A program made the translations under genes and the position numbers. A DNA stretch of 64,000 nt from Afipia sp. (GTDB taxonomy: Bacteria; Pseudomonadota; Alphaproteobacteria; Rhizobiales; Xanthobacteraceae): assembly GCA_016201045.1 (NCBI GenBank), contig JACQDM010000001.1, positions 186,001-250,000 of the forward strand, read 5' to 3'. This document shows, piece after piece, positions 5,025-62,491 of the stretch (its first letter is position 1; each line of letters starts with the position of its first letter). Under the pieces are notes generated by a model that saw only the letters and a program-made list of their open reading frames with translations, ran no database searches and was not told the DNA's origin.

Positions 5025-5132
5025 ATTCGTCCGTCCGGTCCCAAGAGCGCTTGACATTTTCCGTACTAGGATTATATTCCTTCGCGTTATCGCGCGGGTG
5101 GCCGATCACCATTCGCGCGAGGCCTTAAGACA

Positions 5133-5294
5133 ACGGTGGAGCGCCGGGAGGCGCAGCGCCTGTCGTCAACGGGCGCGCACGGTTCGCGGATGAGTCTCGC
5201 AAACTTATTTGCAAACCGCGCGAGATGGGCCGATCGCAAGGCTTGTCTCAAGGATGTCTCGCAAACATCCTGGCGCCTCCCCGCGCTCCACCGT
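5133..5294. repeat. nested inverted/direct repeat between convergent genes
   Basis: The 326-base gap between the thioesterase and the P450 gene holds no convincing gene but is highly structured. ACGGTGGAGCGCCGGGAGGC (with GC following, 5133-5154) pairs with 5273-5294 over 22 bases with one mismatch. Inside the arms lie an 11-base direct repeat GTCTCGCAAAC (5194-5204 and 5256-5266) and a small hairpin AGGATGT/ACATCCT (5251-5257 with 5265-5271). The pattern resembles a dispersed palindromic repeat unit rather than a simple terminator. Confidence 0.55.
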
Positions 5295-5350
5295 CAGGCC
5301 CGCGCGTTGACGGCGCAGCAGGCGGCTTTGCCGTGCGCGAATGAAAGCCG

Positions 5351-8300
5351 CTAGCCGCCGGCCCAGACGTCGAGCACGTAGCGATTGTCGGTGCCCATCT
5401 TGTCGATCCACGCCGCCGCTGCACTTTCGCTAGAGCCGGATTTTTCGCGATAGATGTCGGTGAGCGTCTTCTTCACGCCCGGCTCCATCTTGCTGCCGTC
5501 GCCGCAGACATAAATGATCGCGCCCTGCTCGATCAGCTTCCAGACCTTGTCCTTTTGGGCTGCGATCTGGTCCTGCACATAGGTCTTCGGCGTCGATGCG
5601 CGCGAAAACGCGGTGTGCAATTCTGTGATGTTGTCATGCGCGAATTTTTTCAGTTCATCCGCATAGAGAAAATCCTGATCGGGATTGCGGCATCCGAAGA
5701 ACAGCATCGACGGACCGAGATTCTTGCCGCTCGCCTTCATCGCGGCACGTTCCTGCAGGAACCCGCGAAACGGCGCGAGACCAGTTCCGGGCCCGATCAT
5801 GATGATGGGAATCGCAGGATTTTCAGGAAGCCGGAAACCGGCTTTGGTTTCGCGCACCATTGCATGCACCGTGTCGCCCGCGCGACGGCCGGCGAGATAG
5901 TTCGAGCTGACGCCTTTATAGATGCCGCGCCCCGAAATCGCCGGACCTTCGACAACGCCGACGGTGACGGTGCACTTGTTCTTGCCGACCACCGCAGGCG
6001 ACGACGAGATCGAATAATAGCGCGGCGACAGCAGCGACAGCATCTCTAGATAAGTGTGGAACGGCAACTCACACGCGGGATGCTCCTCGAGCAGATTGTA
6101 GACGGACTTGCGCTTGTTGAGAATTTCGGCGCGATAGTGTTCGTCGTCGCCGGCGAATTTTTCCAGCTTCGGCTTCGTCATCGGGCAGCGCGTGTGCTCG
6201 GACATGATCTGGATCTGCTTGCGGGTCGCAACCTGCTGCAGTTCGACAAATTCGGTGAGCAAGCGTCCGACCGAAACCGCGTTATCGGTGGGAAGCTGCG
6301 CGCGGCGGCCGGTCGCCACATGCAGTCTGACCTGATCCGCAGGCAGAAACCCGAAACGACGCGCGACCGCATCGACCAGAACCGGATCGTTGCGCGGCAC
6401 GATGCTCAAGTGATCGCCAACCCGATAGGTGACGTTCTCCGGCAGTTCCACTTCAATGTGGCGCGTGGAACGATCCGACGGATTGGCACCATCGCGCTTC
6501 TGCAATTCGTCGTTTGCGAGAATCTTGATCGGCACCGCGCCGCCGGACGCCGTAATCGTGTTGACCGCGCTATGCGCGACCGGCTCAATTTTATAAAGCG
6601 GCTCATCATTGGCATCGCGTGCAAATCCGGTCTGGACGCCGAATTCCTTCACTGCGATTTCGCGCAATGAGGCAAACCAATGCTCGAACTGGCCGTCGAG
6701 ATCGTCGCGCGCATCGCCCTCGCCGCGCGGACAGGCTGCGGTCGCGCCATGCTTGGCAAGTTGCTCGTCGATGACGCGCGGAATGGATTGATAGGTCGCA
6801 AGCCAGTCGCTGTTGCCGCAGCCGAACACGGCATAGCGCACGTCTTTGAATTCGTCCTTCGCCAGATCGCTTTGCAGCCATTTGACGAACTGCGTGGCGT
6901 TGTCCGGCGGCGCGCCGTTATACGACGCACAGAAGATGATAACTCCGCCCTGGCCCTTCAGATTGCCGACATAGTCGTCGAGCGGTCCGAGTTTCGTGGC
7001 GAAGCCGTTGACTTCGGCCAGGTCCGCGACGCGATGCGCGAGGTCTTCCGCGGTGCCGAGGTTGGAGCCGTAGAGAATAAGCAGCGGCGTATTGTGGCCG
7101 GGACGCACGCGCGCGGGCGCACTTCCGCCTGCGCTTTCCGCAACGGCAGCGCCGGGCCGCGCAACGACGGTCCGATCCTTGTCGCTGCGCGCGCGCACCT
7201 TGATCTTGAAGCCGTCAGGCTTGATCGTCAGCGTTTCCTTCAGGTGCATCTGGTAACGCTCGTGATCGACCAGCTTGAACCGCTGCAGGATCATGCCGAG
7301 CGCCAGTGCTGCCTCATGCATGGCAAAGCCGCGGCCGATGCAGGCGCGCTGGCCGTTACCGAACGGCTTCCACGCATTCGCCGGGCGCTTGGATTCCACT
7401 TCGCGGCTGAAATTTTCCGGGTCGAACTTGTCGGGGTTCGGTCCCCAGACTTTCGGATCGCGGTGCAACGCCATCACCAGAACGGTAACAAACGTGCCTT
7501 TCTTCAATTTGTATTTGCCGCCGATCACCTCGTCCTTCAGCGGCGACACACCGTAAGCCGGCGCGGGTGGCCACATGCGCAGCGTTTCTTTCAGAATTTT
7601 CGAAATATAATGAAGCTGCGTCACCTGCTGGAAGGTCGGTTTCGCATTTACATCCGCACCCAGCACGCGATCGACTTCCTCATACGCCTTCGCCAGAACC
7701 TCGGGATGTTTGAGCATCGCGTAGATTGCGCAGGACAAGAGGCCAGATGTCGTCTCATGGCCCGCGATCAGAAACGTGTTGATCTGGTAGCGGATATTAA
7801 CGTCGTCGAGCTGCTCGCCCGTAACTTTGTCGACGCCCGTCATCATGGCGTTGAGCATGTCCTTCGTGTCGGCTGCGGCATCCGCATTTTTGCGCCGCTC
7901 GGCCACGATCTCGTCCACCATCTTGTTCATGAAGGCGACGTCTTCGGCCATGCCGGCGCGGCGCGAACGCATGAAGACATTTTCCAGCGGCAGGCCGCGC
8001 GTCATCATGATGGTTTCTAACGACCGCACCAGGGCGCCGACGAAGGGGTGATAGTCCTCGCGATAGAACGAATTGAAGCGATAGTCGAAGCCGCACAGCC
8101 CGATGGTGTCGAGCGTCAGCGCTGTCATGTCGTGGACGACGTCGATCTCGTCGTCGGCGTTCAGCCGTTCCCATTTTTTGACGAGCTGCTCGGCGATATC
8201 GACCATCATCGGATGGTATGACTGCATCGCGCGGCCGCCGAACGGCGACAGCAAAATGTTGTGCGCCTTGCTCCAGTTGGGCTCCGTCGTATCCGCCGTG

Positions 8301-59539: not shown

Positions 59540-59617
59540 GCCACTGCGCTCTTCCATGTCCGGCAACACTCAATCAGTCAAGGTCGGACCATAGCTCAAC
59601 TCTCGTCTTGACAAAAG

Positions 59618-59629
59618 GATTATTTTCCC
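59618..59629. repeat. left copy of 12-base direct repeat flanking the transposon
   Basis: GGATTATTTTCC lies directly outside the left inverted end; an identical copy lies directly outside the right end (61745-61756). With one preceding A the match is 13 bases. It is the probable target duplication, although IS1595-family elements normally make 8-base duplications. Confidence 0.7.
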
Positions 59630-59630
59630 A

Positions 59631-59656
59631 ATTACGTAGTTGACACCACAAGCCCT
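59631..59656. repeat. left terminal inverted repeat of the transposon
   Basis: Twenty-six bases, with AATTACGTAG and GACACCACAA as the two conserved blocks. The right end carries AC in place of TT between them and A in place of G after them. It lies 35 bases before the transposase ATG, so it probably also overlaps the transposase promoter. Confidence 0.8.
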
Positions 59657-59690
59657 ATATGCTGTATTCGGGCCATCAGGAGCGATGGTC

Positions 59691-60626
59691 ATGGCTAAAG
59701 GTTTCAAAGCACCCCAGTTTCACAACGAAGACGCCGCCCGCGTATGGCTTGAGGCCGCGCGTTGGCAGGATGGTCCTGTGTGTCCTAACTGCGGTTCGCT
59801 CAAGCATTACAAAAACAAGTCCAAGGCTGGCGTCTATCGCTGCGGCGAGAAGGAGTGCCGCAAGGATTTCACCGTCATGACCAAGAGCGTCATGGAACGT
59901 AGCCACGCGCCTCTCACGGCTTGGGCCACGGCCTTTCATCTCTATGCGTCATCCAAGAAGGGCTTCACCGCTACTCAACTGGAGCGCATCCTAGGCTGTC
60001 AGTACAACACCGCTTGGTTCATCCATCATCGCGTGATGGAAGCAATGCGCCGTGGCGGTCTTGCTCCTCTCGGTGGAGAGGGAAAGATCGTTGAAGCCGA
60101 CGAAACGTATTATGGCGAAGTGCCAGAGTCTAAGCGCCGCAAGGTAACAACCAGCGGTCGTCCGTTCACTAAGTCTGGCCGTGGCGGCCCGTCGAACAAG
60201 CGCAGCATCGTTGCTCTCGTCGAGCGCGGCGGCGATGTTCGCACATTCCATGTGCCGTTCGCTGACGCTGCTACCGTTGCTAACATTGTCAATTCAAACG
60301 TGGCCCGCGAATCGCGTTTGCATACTGACGAGTCGCGCCTCTACACCAAGGTAGGCGCTAACTTTGCGAAGCATGAAACGGTCAATCATTCCGCCAAGGA
60401 ATACGCCCGTGGCGACGTGAATACGAACACCGTTGAAGGCTTCTTCGGTATCTTTAAGCGCGGCATGCGTGGCAACTATCAGCATTGCGCTGAAAAGAAC
60501 TTACACCGCTATCTCGCGGAATTTGAATTTCGTTACAATACTCGCACGATCACTGACGGGGAACGTGCAGCCCTTGCTGTTAAGGGTGCAGACGGCAAGC
60601 GTCTAACGTACCGACAACCTCACTAG
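59691..60626 (+). CDS. IS1595 family transposase
   Basis: This 311-residue transposase has an N-terminal zinc ribbon (Cys31, Cys34, Cys51, Cys56: CPNC and CGEKEC). Then comes a helix-turn-helix-like part (TATQLERILGCQYNTAWFIHH) and the ISXO2-type catalytic domain. Acidic residues are Asp137 (VEADETYYG), Asp213 (HTDESRLY) and Glu249 (NTVEGFFGIFKRGMRG). Length is normal and no frame break is seen, so it looks active. AGGAG eight bases before the ATG at 59691 makes that the better start than the ATG at 59685. Confidence 0.92.
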   Translation: MAKGFKAPQFHNEDAARVWLEAARWQDGPVCPNCGSLKHYKNKSKAGVYRCGEKECRKDFTVMTKSVMERSHAPLTAWATAFHLYASSKKGFTATQLERILGCQYNTAWFIHHRVMEAMRRGGLAPLGGEGKIVEADETYYGEVPESKRRKVTTSGRPFTKSGRGGPSNKRSIVALVERGGDVRTFHVPFADAATVANIVNSNVARESRLHTDESRLYTKVGANFAKHETVNHSAKEYARGDVNTNTVEGFFGIFKRGMRGNYQHCAEKNLHRYLAEFEFRYNTRTITDGERAALAVKGADGKRLTYRQPH

Positions 60627-60688
60627 ACCTAATTACTCTCATTTCGTCGCGCGCCTGAAACGCAATTGGCGCAAAGGGAGAAACAAAT

Positions 60689-60850
60689 ATGAGCGAGATT
60701 AATTCTTGGATTATTGGGTATTTCCGTGACTACGGGACAATGACGATATGTGGATTGCTTTTTGCCGGAGTAATTTATCTGGAAAAGATCAGAAATGATG
60801 TTTCGGTTATCCGTGCCATCATGTGGAAACGTCATTTCAACGAAGGCTAG
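60689..60850 (+). CDS. transposon passenger 1: 53-residue single-span membrane protein
   Basis: AAGGGAG lies eight bases before the ATG. The product begins MSEINSWIIGYFRDYGTMTI and has one membrane helix at about 18-32 (TMTICGLLFAGVIYL). A basic amphipathic tail (EKIRNDVSVIRAIMWKRHF) follows. Size and shape resemble small holin- or type I toxin-like proteins, but I recognise no family. Its TAG stop shares the palindrome CTAG (60847-60850) with the stop of the convergent passenger 2. Confidence 0.6.
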   Translation: MSEINSWIIGYFRDYGTMTICGLLFAGVIYLEKIRNDVSVIRAIMWKRHFNEG

Positions 60851-61017
60851 CCCGTCTTCGATTTCCGCCTTGCGGGCTTATTCTGTCCGCGTGACTCGCC
60901 ATTCTTTTTCGGGATAGCCTTCAATGGTGTTGGGGGACCAGCGAACGCGCCGCGCAATGTGGCTTGCAAACGCTCCCTAGTTTCCTTGTTGCTATATTGC
61001 TCAGAGTCTTTTGCCAT
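60847..61017 (-). CDS. transposon passenger 2: 56-residue basic protein
   Basis: The frame begins MAKDSEQYSNKETRERLQAT and ends in a basic tail (GQNKPARRKSKTG). It has the short helical core plus Lys/Arg/Pro tail seen in small phage- and transposon-linked proteins of Hyphomicrobiales (ET-x-R-x6-L-R-GA.AGPP pattern). The ATG lies on CATG (61015-61018), shared with passenger 3 on the other strand. The upstream ribosome site is weak. Composition supports a real gene; function unknown. Confidence 0.5.
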   Translation of the reverse strand: MAKDSEQYSNKETRERLQATLRGAFAGPPTPLKAIPKKNGESRGQNKPARRKSKTG

Positions 61018-61648
61018 GGCTGATGCCGATCCAGAGATTAAGAAGGCTCTTAATGATTTCGCACTCACTAGAGCCGCTGCGCTAAATACCTACGCCGCCC
61101 TTGAACAATCACTAGCGGGACTTTTCAGCACGCTGATGGGCGCTCAAGGTAAGCCAGTCGATATCCGAAAATCATACCTCGTTTTCGCGCAAATCCTAAG
61201 CTACCGCCATCGCAGAGTAATGCTCACAAACCTTATTAAAATCGAGTATGGCGACCAGTACGACGTTTTCACTAAGAGCCTTATGAAGCGATTGGGAAAA
61301 GTGGAAGACCAAAGAAACAAAGTAGTACACTGGATCGTTTTAAGCGGCACGCCAGGCGGTGAAAAATTCAATGCTGCGCGGGACATTGCATTGCATCAGC
61401 ACCCGAACATTTTTGGGCCTGATAAAATGACAAAAACCGACTTGGAACTGTTCACTTCCAAATCACTATTCTTGAAAGACTTAGTCTTCAACTTTGATTT
61501 TTATCTGAAGTGGGGATCGGCAATGCCGAATTACCCATCAATGGCCACATGGCCTGAAATATTTCAGCGACCAGTGGACTATCCTCTCCCGAGCGACCAT
61601 CCACTATCCCAGACTCATACAGAACCGTCAGGCCAGCCTCAATCATAG
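61016..61648 (+). CDS. transposon passenger 3: HEPN-like helical protein, candidate RNase
   Basis: This 210-residue, mainly helical protein has no membrane span. DQRNKVVHWIVL (98-109) contains Arg100-Asn101-x3-His105, an R-x4-H motif with a polar residue after Arg, as in the active site of HEPN-fold RNases. Helices before it (ALTRAAALNTYAALEQSLAG, then RHRRVMLTNLIK) fit the HEPN bundle. The C-terminus is Pro/His-rich. The ATG sits on the CATG shared with passenger 2 and has no ribosome site; an upstream GTG (60959) is an alternative. The last 161 bases overlap passenger 4. The HEPN call is inference from the motif. Confidence 0.6.
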   Translation: MADADPEIKKALNDFALTRAAALNTYAALEQSLAGLFSTLMGAQGKPVDIRKSYLVFAQILSYRHRRVMLTNLIKIEYGDQYDVFTKSLMKRLGKVEDQRNKVVHWIVLSGTPGGEKFNAARDIALHQHPNIFGPDKMTKTDLELFTSKSLFLKDLVFNFDFYLKWGSAMPNYPSMATWPEIFQRPVDYPLPSDHPLSQTHTEPSGQPQS

Positions 61649-61682
61649 CCGGCGTAATTTCAATTTCAGGCGCGCCAGACAT
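61488..61682 (-). CDS. transposon passenger 4: 64-residue small protein
   Basis: GGAGG lies seven bases before the ATG, a strong site. The product begins MSGAPEIEITPAMIEAGLTV, a pattern (EITPxMIEAG) common in short accessory proteins of rhizobia and their phages. It is acidic and helical with no signal peptide. The gene overlaps the 3' part of passenger 3 in antisense by 161 bases. Because of the overlap the two cannot be varied independently. An antitoxin role is possible but not supported by motif. Confidence 0.55.
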   Translation of the reverse strand: MSGAPEIEITPAMIEAGLTVLYESGIVDGRSGEDSPLVAEIFQAMWPLMGNSALPIPTSDKNQS

Positions 61683-61717
61683 CGGAAACCTCCGTTTTGT
61701 CCGAAGCACTATATCAT

Positions 61718-61743
61718 GGGTTTGTGGTGTCGTCTACGTAATT
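61718..61743. repeat. right terminal inverted repeat of the transposon
   Basis: Read on the minus strand it is AATTACGTAG-AC-GACACCACAA-A-CCC. It matches the left end at 23 of 26 positions. It begins 35 bases beyond the passenger 4 ATG. Confidence 0.8.
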
Positions 61744-61744
61744 A

Positions 61745-61756
61745 GGATTATTTTCC
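61745..61756. repeat. right copy of 12-base direct repeat flanking the transposon
   Basis: GGATTATTTTCC, identical to 59618-59629. Joining the flanks at this repeat gives TTGACA (59609-59614), 15 bases, then TATACC (61757-61762), so the target appears to have been the spacer of a promoter for the downstream gene. Confidence 0.7.
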
Positions 61757-61779
61757 TATACCAGTTTTCTGGAACAGGA

Positions 61780-62148
61780 ATGAGAAAGATAATGAGCCTT
61801 CTTAGAAACCTTGAGCGTAATGTCTTGAATTTGAAAGCAGAGGCAAGTCATGCCGCTGCAGAAGTCAAGTTTCGAAAATTGATGCATGCTATTAAAGCAG
61901 GCTTCGATCCCAGCCAACCGCGAGACGAAAGCGGACGTTGGTCGGACGCTGGCGCTTCGTCCGCCAATAGTGAGGCGGACGTGCAGCCCGCGCTGGCAAG
62001 CTACTCAAACATCGAAGAGTGCAACTTTCAGTTCAAGAAAGACCTCATTCAATGCAAATTCACCGGCCTCAGAAATTGCTATGCTCAGGCGATGGTGCGG
62101 CTCATCGCATGCGAACGCGGCCATCCTATTCCGCCGTTGAACTACTAG
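61780..62148 (+). CDS. small Cys-containing protein with FDPSQPRDESGRW motif, candidate toxin-like effector
   Basis: The 122-residue product has a charged helical N-terminus (about 1-45). The motif AGFDPSQPRDESGRWSDAG (about 45-63), which also occurs in phage head-linked and polymorphic-toxin-type proteins, follows. The C-terminal domain has four Cys: EECNFQF, LIQCKFTGLRNCYAQAM and IACERG. It ends HPIPPLNY. From memory, this end recurs in a Bradyrhizobium small-protein family. AGGA lies one base before the ATG at 61780; the ATG at 61792 is an alternative. The partner gene starts 13 bases after the stop. Toxic function is a guess from layout. Confidence 0.6.
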   Translation: MRKIMSLLRNLERNVLNLKAEASHAAAEVKFRKLMHAIKAGFDPSQPRDESGRWSDAGASSANSEADVQPALASYSNIEECNFQFKKDLIQCKFTGLRNCYAQAMVRLIACERGHPIPPLNY

Positions 62149-62161
62149 GACTCGTTCATCA

Positions 62162-62491
62162 ATGATTATTGCATCAAGAGTCCTTCAATTCACCACCCAC
62201 TCGGGAACAAAGGCTGTTCAGATTGACCTCTTTCGGCCTGAGCAGAACGATGGCGATTGGATCTGTCATTACACAGTCCACTGGCCGGATAAAGCGTGGC
62301 AAAGTTTCGGCGGTGGTTATGATGCGATACAGGCGCTTCTGTCCGCTCTTCAGAAAATAGGGTTTGAGCTTTATGCCAGCGAAGCCAACAAGACCGGAAA
62401 GTTGACATGGGGAAATTGGGAAGGTTTCGGCTTTCCCGTGCCGCAAAATGCGCGCGACCTTTTAAAAGGGGACGACGCTAAATTTCTCTGA
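62162..62491 (+). CDS. DUF6968-like protein, possible partner of the upstream gene
   Basis: This 109-residue protein has ASRVLQFTTHSGTKAVQIDL at the start, then GDWICHYTVHWPDKA, DAIQALLSALQKIGFELYAS and GFGFPVPQNARDLLKGDD. This is the layout I associate with DUF6968, a small beta/alpha domain often found beside toxin-like genes. There is no signal peptide. It follows the Cys-rich gene by 13 bases, so the two form an operon. An immunity role would fit but is unproven. The bidirectional terminator after it ends the unit. Confidence 0.65.
   Translation: MIIASRVLQFTTHSGTKAVQIDLFRPEQNDGDWICHYTVHWPDKAWQSFGGGYDAIQALLSALQKIGFELYASEANKTGKLTWGNWEGFGFPVPQNARDLLKGDDAKFL

Follow-up and report, generated by a model that had tools for sequence, protein, structure and literature searches.

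An IS1595-family transporter insertion sequence in Afipia sp. with a candidate HEPN-type RNase gene in a putatively exchangeable cargo slot

The element and its target site

The stretch of DNA analysed here (the window: 64,000 nt of contig JACQDM010000001.1 from Afipia sp.) carries an IS1595-family element of 2120 bp at 59627-61746, the boundaries being set by comparison with relatives (Table 1). The transposase open reading frame (ORF) is intact, and its DDE_Tnp_IS1595 and N-terminal Zn_ribbon_IS1595 matches exceed the Pfam cut-offs, which places it in the family and bears out the original prediction, made from the letters of the window, of an IS1595-type transposon with an intact transposase. 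Four short ORFs follow, in the order of a 53-aa ORF, a 56-aa basic protein (minus strand), a 210-aa HEPN-type protein (plus strand) and an acidic protein of ~64 aa (minus strand). Insertion sequences (IS) are usually regarded as carrying a transposase only, and the concept of the 'transporter IS' (tIS) is said to be that of Siguier, Gagnevin and Chandler, 2009. That an IS can hold passenger genes is an established concept, IS1595 included, in the passages cited here (PMC11891212, PMC7986276). Our preferred reading, to which we give a probability of about 70%, is that the element is an IS1595 transporter IS with an exchangeable slot, here holding an HEPN-type RNase candidate as putative defence or addiction cargo.

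Table 1. Features of the element and of its target site, in window coordinates.
Feature	Position	Strand	Evidence
AGG, left half of target context	59616..59618	.	consensus over 28 elements
8-bp target duplication, left copy, ATTATTTT	59619..59626	.	
Left terminal inverted repeat, first 28 nt compared	59627..59654	.	24/28 match right end
IS1595-family transposase (zinc ribbon and DDE domain), 311 aa	59691..60626	+	PF12762 E=1.1e-34, PF12760 E=4.1e-11
53-aa ORF with hydrophobic stretch; doubtful gene	60689..60850	+	ORF list
Small basic protein, begins MAKDS, 56 aa; conserved clade companion	60847..61017	-	family in 50/97 elements
CATG, overlapping start codons of basic gene (-) and HEPN gene (+)	61015..61018	.	
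HEPN-type RNase candidate, 210 aa; R100-N-K-V-V-H105 at 61313-61330	61016..61648	+	motif conservation in 34 aligned relatives
Small acidic protein MSGAPEIEITPAMIEAG..., ~64 aa; convergent with HEPN gene, overlapping its 3' end	61488..61682	-	family in 21/97 elements
Right terminal inverted repeat	61719..61746	.	
8-bp target duplication, right copy, ATTATTTT	61747..61754	.	
CCT, right half of target context	61755..61757	.	consensus over 28 elements

The inverted ends of the original prediction are real, although the 26 bases with three mismatches that it gave are resolved here as 24 of 28 matching. Outside them the element is flanked by a perfect (8/8) 8-bp duplication, in agreement with the 8-bp target duplications that the cited text states for the IS1595 family (PMC8101967). 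A flush identical repeat of 12 bases had also been predicted. Such a repeat does exist, with 13 identical bases (AGGATTATTTTCC, at 59616-59628 and 61744-61756) as part of a 40-nt inverted repeat with 80% complementarity, but the duplication itself is 8 bp and is accompanied by AGG/CC context. Based on the relatives and on a consensus of 28 elements, we replaced the 12-base target duplication by 8 bp with AGG/CCT context: the bases of the repeat beyond the duplication are target context, AGG before and CCT after, that resembles the tips of the element.

Across the 28 elements with a transposase of at least 60% identity to that of the window, the target consensus is T-AGG-A-N6-T-CCT-A. The left context is A in 23, G in 24 and G in 27 elements, the edges of the 8 bp are A in 25 and T in 22, and the right context is C in 24, C in 24 and T in 25. 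The palindromic target AGG-N8-CCT is imitated by the tips of the elements, which are mostly CCC (21/28) and GGG (17/28). The exact AGG-N8-CCT string is found at 17 of the 28 insertion sites; the flanks contain 21 copies in 146,740 nt, roughly one every 7 kb.

Relatives of the element and exchange of cargo

The window transposase matched 136 of 299 related genomes. We retrieved the surroundings of ~100 matches, together with 28 named loci (including Afipia, Nitrobacter vulgaris, Pseudorhodoplanes and Bradyrhizobiaceae). Among 129 non-redundant transposase matches, 97 are complete elements, a set selected by having both ends and a duplication of at least 7/8, and 95 of the 97 duplications are perfect over 8 bp. 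The other 32 were left out: 24 had no ends found, several of these at contig edges, and eight had weak or implausible ends, one of which (L138) was removed by hand despite passing the thresholds. Transposase identity to the window ranges from 32 to 100% over the survey. We regard the recurrence of the same kind of ends and of perfect 8-bp duplications as exceeding what chance would give.

The complete elements measure 1807-4627 bp (median 2487), with 861-3628 nt (median 1499) between transposase and right end, and each of the 97 has at least one cargo ORF of at least 100 aa. The search for the right end started 60 nt short of where the transposase match ends, so compact elements free of cargo would have been seen; loci extend ~5-6 kb beyond the transposase, and elements longer than ~6 kb would be missed. 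Cargo is thus no peculiarity of the window element but general in the clade, the gap from transposase to right end being 861 nt or more in 97 of 97. Because ends, 8-bp duplications and cargo recur in these 97 relatives, the window element, as judged from sequence, is a member of a cargo-bearing IS1595 clade and an IS1595-family tIS in the known sense.

Two loci, L175 and L177, carry copies of one 2113-bp element (95.4% identical) that differ in their flanks and duplications. The element contains the transposase, the basic gene, the HEPN gene and the acidic gene. Its presence at two sites, each with its own duplication, shows at the level of sequence comparison that transposase, ends and 8-bp duplication are one mobile unit that moves as a whole, as had been predicted. 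Silent and replacing changes between the copies number 47 and 9 in the transposase, 11 and 9 in the HEPN gene, 8 and 2 in the basic gene and 5 and 4 in the acidic gene. Both loci are metagenome bins of one sampling series, so their labels (Xanthobacteraceae and Acidobacteriaceae) may be untrustworthy.

Transposase and HEPN protein do not diverge together. Their identities are uncorrelated (Mantel rho 0.01, n=33, 427 of 1000 permutations as high) with L175, a near copy of L177, removed from this test and from those on the acidic protein; with L175 included, rho is -0.03. Fifteen pairs of transposases are at least 75% identical, and in 14 of them (transposases 75-89%) the HEPN proteins are 12-19% identical, the exception being L175 and L177 (97 and 97). 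The nearest transposase to that of the window is L040 (87%), yet the L040 HEPN protein is only 18% identical, and the nearest HEPN proteins come from L177 (30%, transposase 67%) and L058 (27%, transposase 50%). Between L053 and L054 the transposases are 98% identical and the cargo is unrelated: per 100 nt, the DNA is 85-98% identical up to ~1000 nt and then 34-56% over the cargo. These comparisons support the view that, in the clade, the stretch from transposase to right end acts as a slot whose content can be exchanged. Passenger genes are present between the ends, as expected of a tIS, and cargo exchange suggests that they are dispensable for transposition.

In all three pairs of adjacent elements found (L055, L068 and L077), exactly one 8-bp copy lies between the elements; therefore one element had inserted into the duplication of the other. 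This could be how cargo comes to be exchanged. The transposase would insert the element into palindromic, AT-rich T-AGG-A-N6-T-CCT-A sites, and since the tips resemble halves of the site, insertion would rebuild the target at each junction, beside which further elements could dock. Recombination between neighbours that share transposase genes or ends might then swap cargo.

The HEPN candidate and its small companions

HEPN domains are characterized by R-x4-6-H, usually with N, D or H after the R, and by a second conserved position, an acidic residue upstream that typically belongs to an Ex3[KR] motif, in the part of the literature cited (PMC3710099). HEPN-like proteins recur in 34 of the 97 complete elements. 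In the 34 aligned rows, collected by an iterative profile started from the window protein, the R-x4-H motif (R100, H105) is invariant, N, H or D follows the R in 33, and column E30 holds an acidic residue in 30. This upholds the candidate HEPN nuclease of the original prediction as an HEPN-like candidate. RNxxxH occurs in 33 of 159 cargo ORFs and in 10 of 404 flank ORFs, of which two belong to the cargo of a neighbouring element; the profile itself drew in 2 of the 404 flank ORFs, namely cargo of the neighbouring element L077b and a 143-aa ORF at L065 3371-3799, in which there is no motif. The HEPN fold is helical, and its motif sits where helix 3 ends; in the model of the window protein, R-x4-H lies at the end of a helix (pLDDT 76). 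A search among viral contigs confirmed no HEPN relatives of the window protein.

A slot filled by the HEPN-type RNase candidate, with its start shared at CATG with the basic gene and its end overlapping the acidic gene, is supported by the relatives. Fifty of the 97 elements carry a member of the basic family on the minus strand, in every case with a net positive charge (median +9). A second small family, on the plus strand and mostly basic, is found in 26, and one or the other in 76. All flank matches of both families are genes of a neighbouring element, and a single-sequence search of the 299 genomes with the basic protein placed 17 of 20 matches (E<1e-3) within 2 kb of an IS1595 transposase match. 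The CATG start overlap is present in 20 of the 27 elements with both basic and HEPN genes and, whatever the kind of cargo, in 25 of the 50 that have the basic gene. Among the 2444 minus-strand ATG codons in cargo, 144 show such an overlap, those 25 included; a cargo gene therefore often starts exactly where the conserved small gene starts. Promoters at this junction were inspected by eye only, and we claim none. The acidic family is found in 21 elements, 19 of them with HEPN cargo (Fisher 3.7e-9), and in 19 of 19 its gene is convergent with the HEPN gene, overlapping it by 68-189 nt. We also considered the acidic protein as a specific antitoxin that co-varies with the HEPN protein, which is unsupported (rho 0.13, n=18).

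Could the small ORFs be no genes at all, leaving the HEPN gene as the sole passenger? They do overlap other frames, and the ORF at 60689-60850 has no relative except itself (phmmer, E<=1, ORFs of the 97 elements and flanks). However, the basic and acidic families recur, always on the minus strand and with flank matches only in neighbouring elements, and the changes between L175 and L177 are mostly silent in the basic gene, less clearly so in the acidic one. We consider this explanation very unlikely. Of the four short genes on alternating strands in the original prediction, the ORFs exist and three have homologues in related elements; 60689-60850 is the one for which none was detected.

While it is possible that the basic protein is the antitoxin of an HEPN toxin in a divergent toxin-antitoxin pair, it seems more likely that it serves the transposon or cargo expression. 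The two genes are adjacent with overlapping start codons, and the minus-strand basic gene is enriched in HEPN elements (27 of 34 compared to 23 of the 63 others, Fisher 1e-4). Nevertheless, 23 of the 50 basic genes lie in elements without HEPN cargo, and the divergence of the basic protein follows that of the transposase (rho 0.45-0.57; Mantel rho 0.45, n=50, 0 of 1000 permutations as high), not that of the HEPN protein (rho 0.06). Because it accompanies different kinds of cargo and follows the transposase, we disfavour the antitoxin role and rate it as improbable.

The same tie between basic protein and transposase would be expected of a transposition factor, and the genes do lie inside the element. 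The HEPN and small proteins might therefore control their own transposon, cleavage of transposase mRNA being one possible way, in a function unrelated to phages. Yet the slot of other elements is often occupied by unrelated proteins, among them DNA methylases and PIN or RelA/SpoT proteins, and these elements seem no less mobile. The HEPN protein is thus not needed to move, and self-regulation appears unlikely, if somewhat less so than an antitoxin role of the basic protein.

The original prediction had named two findings that would speak against it. One, transposase copies always without the small genes, was not observed. The other, small genes without transposase or ends, was found in few places: L252 (4103-4983) and L261 (2238-3245) carry the basic, HEPN and acidic genes in the usual order with no transposase match, and a script detected no end pair in either. 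In 14 of the 22 regions examined, the HEPN gene stands alone; others carry transposase fragments. HEPN relatives outside elements may be relics or donors, with L252 and L261 possibly transposase-less derivatives or relics, and they do not undo the mobility of the window element. A stand-alone HEPN relative (L253, E 2e-20) also lies near 92.6 kb on contig C4 of the same genome, with neither transposase nor small partner genes found alongside; it is a possible source of cargo.

Cargo of the clade, its putative role and related systems

A Pfam scan (E<=0.01) covered 155 of the 159 cargo ORFs of at least 100 aa; the omitted L042 HEPN was scanned separately. The commonest families are DUF3800 (12), PIN (5), N6_N4 methylase (3), ClpP (3) and Mrr_cat (3). 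C5 methylase, GmrSD_N, NYN, RelA_SpoT, DUF4145 and P63C occur twice each, and SocA_Panacea, Vsr, Abi_2, Schlafen AlbA_2, HEPN_RiboL-PSP, N6_Mtase, Methylase_S, IrrE-like, HNH and others once. As a control we used 125 of the 404 flank ORFs, matched in length, for which 25 of 114 Pfam families are visible, so that single flank matches are partly unseen. DUF3800 accounts for 12 of the 155 cargo ORFs and for at most 1 of the 125 flank ORFs (Fisher 0.008 if 1), and no flank family with at least two members is of a defence or toxin kind except TatD DNase, seen three times. PADLOC and NCBIfam scans covered 148 of the 159 cargo ORFs. In cargo, PADLOC picked out methylases along with a few candidates (at most 5 of 148), and in flanks it gave scattered matches (at most 3 of 125), a modest contrast that we dropped as too weak to serve as sole proof of defence enrichment.

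A different cargo recurs in more distant elements. In L131, L146, L149, L156 and plasmid pMOC1 of Methylobacterium oryzae (L273), a 260-290 aa protein followed by a short ORF recurs, and PIN domains occur in such sets; on pMOC1, the annotated IS1595 transposase is followed by a hypothetical protein and then a VapC toxin. Separately, L055 carries as cargo at 5077-6318 a RelA/SpoT-domain protein (E 2.2e-17) that could be a toxic small alarmone synthetase; the element to which it belongs lies within another element's duplication.

These counts bear on whether the passengers are chance hitch-hikers between two ends, with no common purpose, as in an ordinary transporter IS. The passenger-gene concept itself is consistent with this, as are the many unnamed cargo ORFs and the modest PADLOC contrast. 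However, one HEPN-like superfamily fills more than a third of the elements with its motif kept throughout, DUF3800 and RNxxxH are commoner in cargo than in flanks, the flank controls differ from cargo in family composition, and the CATG overlap and the acidic gene at the 3' end form a fixed arrangement. We regard chance passengers as unlikely, though the most plausible of the competing explanations.

In our preferred reading, with an exchangeable slot and putative defence or addiction cargo, the HEPN protein would be a metal-independent RNase, kept quiet in normal cells by its acidic partner or by weak expression and set free on phage infection or on loss of the element; the cargo would then serve host and element alike as a defence or addiction gene. 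A defence role for the cargo, HEPN included, is our guess from gene content. Two points weigh against it. HEPN membership is that of a candidate, resting on the motif and on helical models without a significant profile or fold match: Pfam gave no significant HEPN-family profile match for the window protein; among the 34 rows, there is a single match to HEPN_RiboL-PSP (0.0084) and a single one to HEPN_Cthe2314 (0.14), with an hhalign probability of 9%; a structure search with two AlphaFold models gave no decisive match; and a PDB profile search returned three matches, none significant (best E 0.03), the third being an HEPN RNase (Csm6') at E 0.43. In addition, some Pfam cargo families have no defence meaning and many cargo ORFs have no family name.

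It is tempting to speculate further that the clade works as a general platform on which single immune genes are exchanged: cassettes would be fused at CATG to a constant module of transposase, basic gene with CATG, and ends, and target mimicry would dock elements in the duplications of one another. We hold this tentatively, as possible but less likely than not. If true, a small IS would play the part of an integron where defence and toxin genes are concerned.

Similar to the tIS and IS1595 family in the cited passages (PMC11891212, PMC7986276, PMC8101967), the elements have DDE_Tnp_IS1595 and zinc ribbon domains, inverted ends, 8-bp duplications and passenger genes. They differ in that all complete relatives examined have cargo, which is often nuclease- or toxin-like and changes independently of the transposase, and in the conserved small basic gene with its CATG start overlap. 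Tn3-family toxin-antitoxin modules (Lima-Mendez et al. 2020, PMC7157771) likewise place toxin-like cargo, HEPN and PIN included, in a fixed position beside transposition genes, with one HEPN/MNT pair among those in the part cited. There, the toxin has a known antitoxin and lies near a res site, whereas the partner here is an unnamed acidic protein and Pfam found no resolvase or MNT in the window element. HEPN/MNT systems, as the cited portion describes them (PMC7641770), share the R-x4-H motif in a small helical protein; unlike them, the window element lacks a nucleotidyltransferase partner, with no such match among its small ORFs (Pfam, E<=1). Tn7-like transposons (Benler et al. 2021, PMC8649781, portion cited) are also a family with cargo enriched in defence genes, but they are far larger and have several core genes, compared to one transposase and ~1-3.6 kb of cargo in the IS1595 clade.

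We found no description of defence, HEPN, DUF3800 or toxin-antitoxin cargo in IS1595 in the titles or abstract openings of openly licensed PMC literature, which leaves room for an earlier description. What is known is the IS1595 transporter IS; what is new is exchangeable, often toxin- or defence-like cargo in a fixed gene arrangement, with a function that we infer. If that function holds, the clade would represent a neglected reservoir of small immune genes in Alphaproteobacteria and a means of delivering them, and reading the content between IS1595 ends would be a route to new defence genes. The CATG overlap and insertion into an element's own duplication offer testable ideas on how cargo is captured and swapped.

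The same genome holds two more elements. A complete member of the clade of 3156 bp lies on contig C10 near 78.4-81.6 kb (L004:1398-4553); its transposase is ~64% identical, it has the same small basic gene and CATG start, and its cargo is a DUF3800-like protein, judged from its sequence, and a 291-aa ORF. The third, on contig C4 (L163), is distant, with a transposase 35% identical, a length of 1807 bp, one cargo ORF of ~250 aa and the site AGG-ATTATATT-CCT.

Comparison of the flanks with 29 genomes of the genus, using the flank joined across the insertion, yielded no clean empty site, because the left flank's closest relative (L170/L209, 82.7% over 595 nt) is likewise without the adjacent genes of the right flank. 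To the right of the element, window 61780-62491 holds two small genes, the second encoding a DUF6968 protein (E 1.4e-28). Most of this segment finds no match in L170/L209, and the segment may therefore itself be an insertion.

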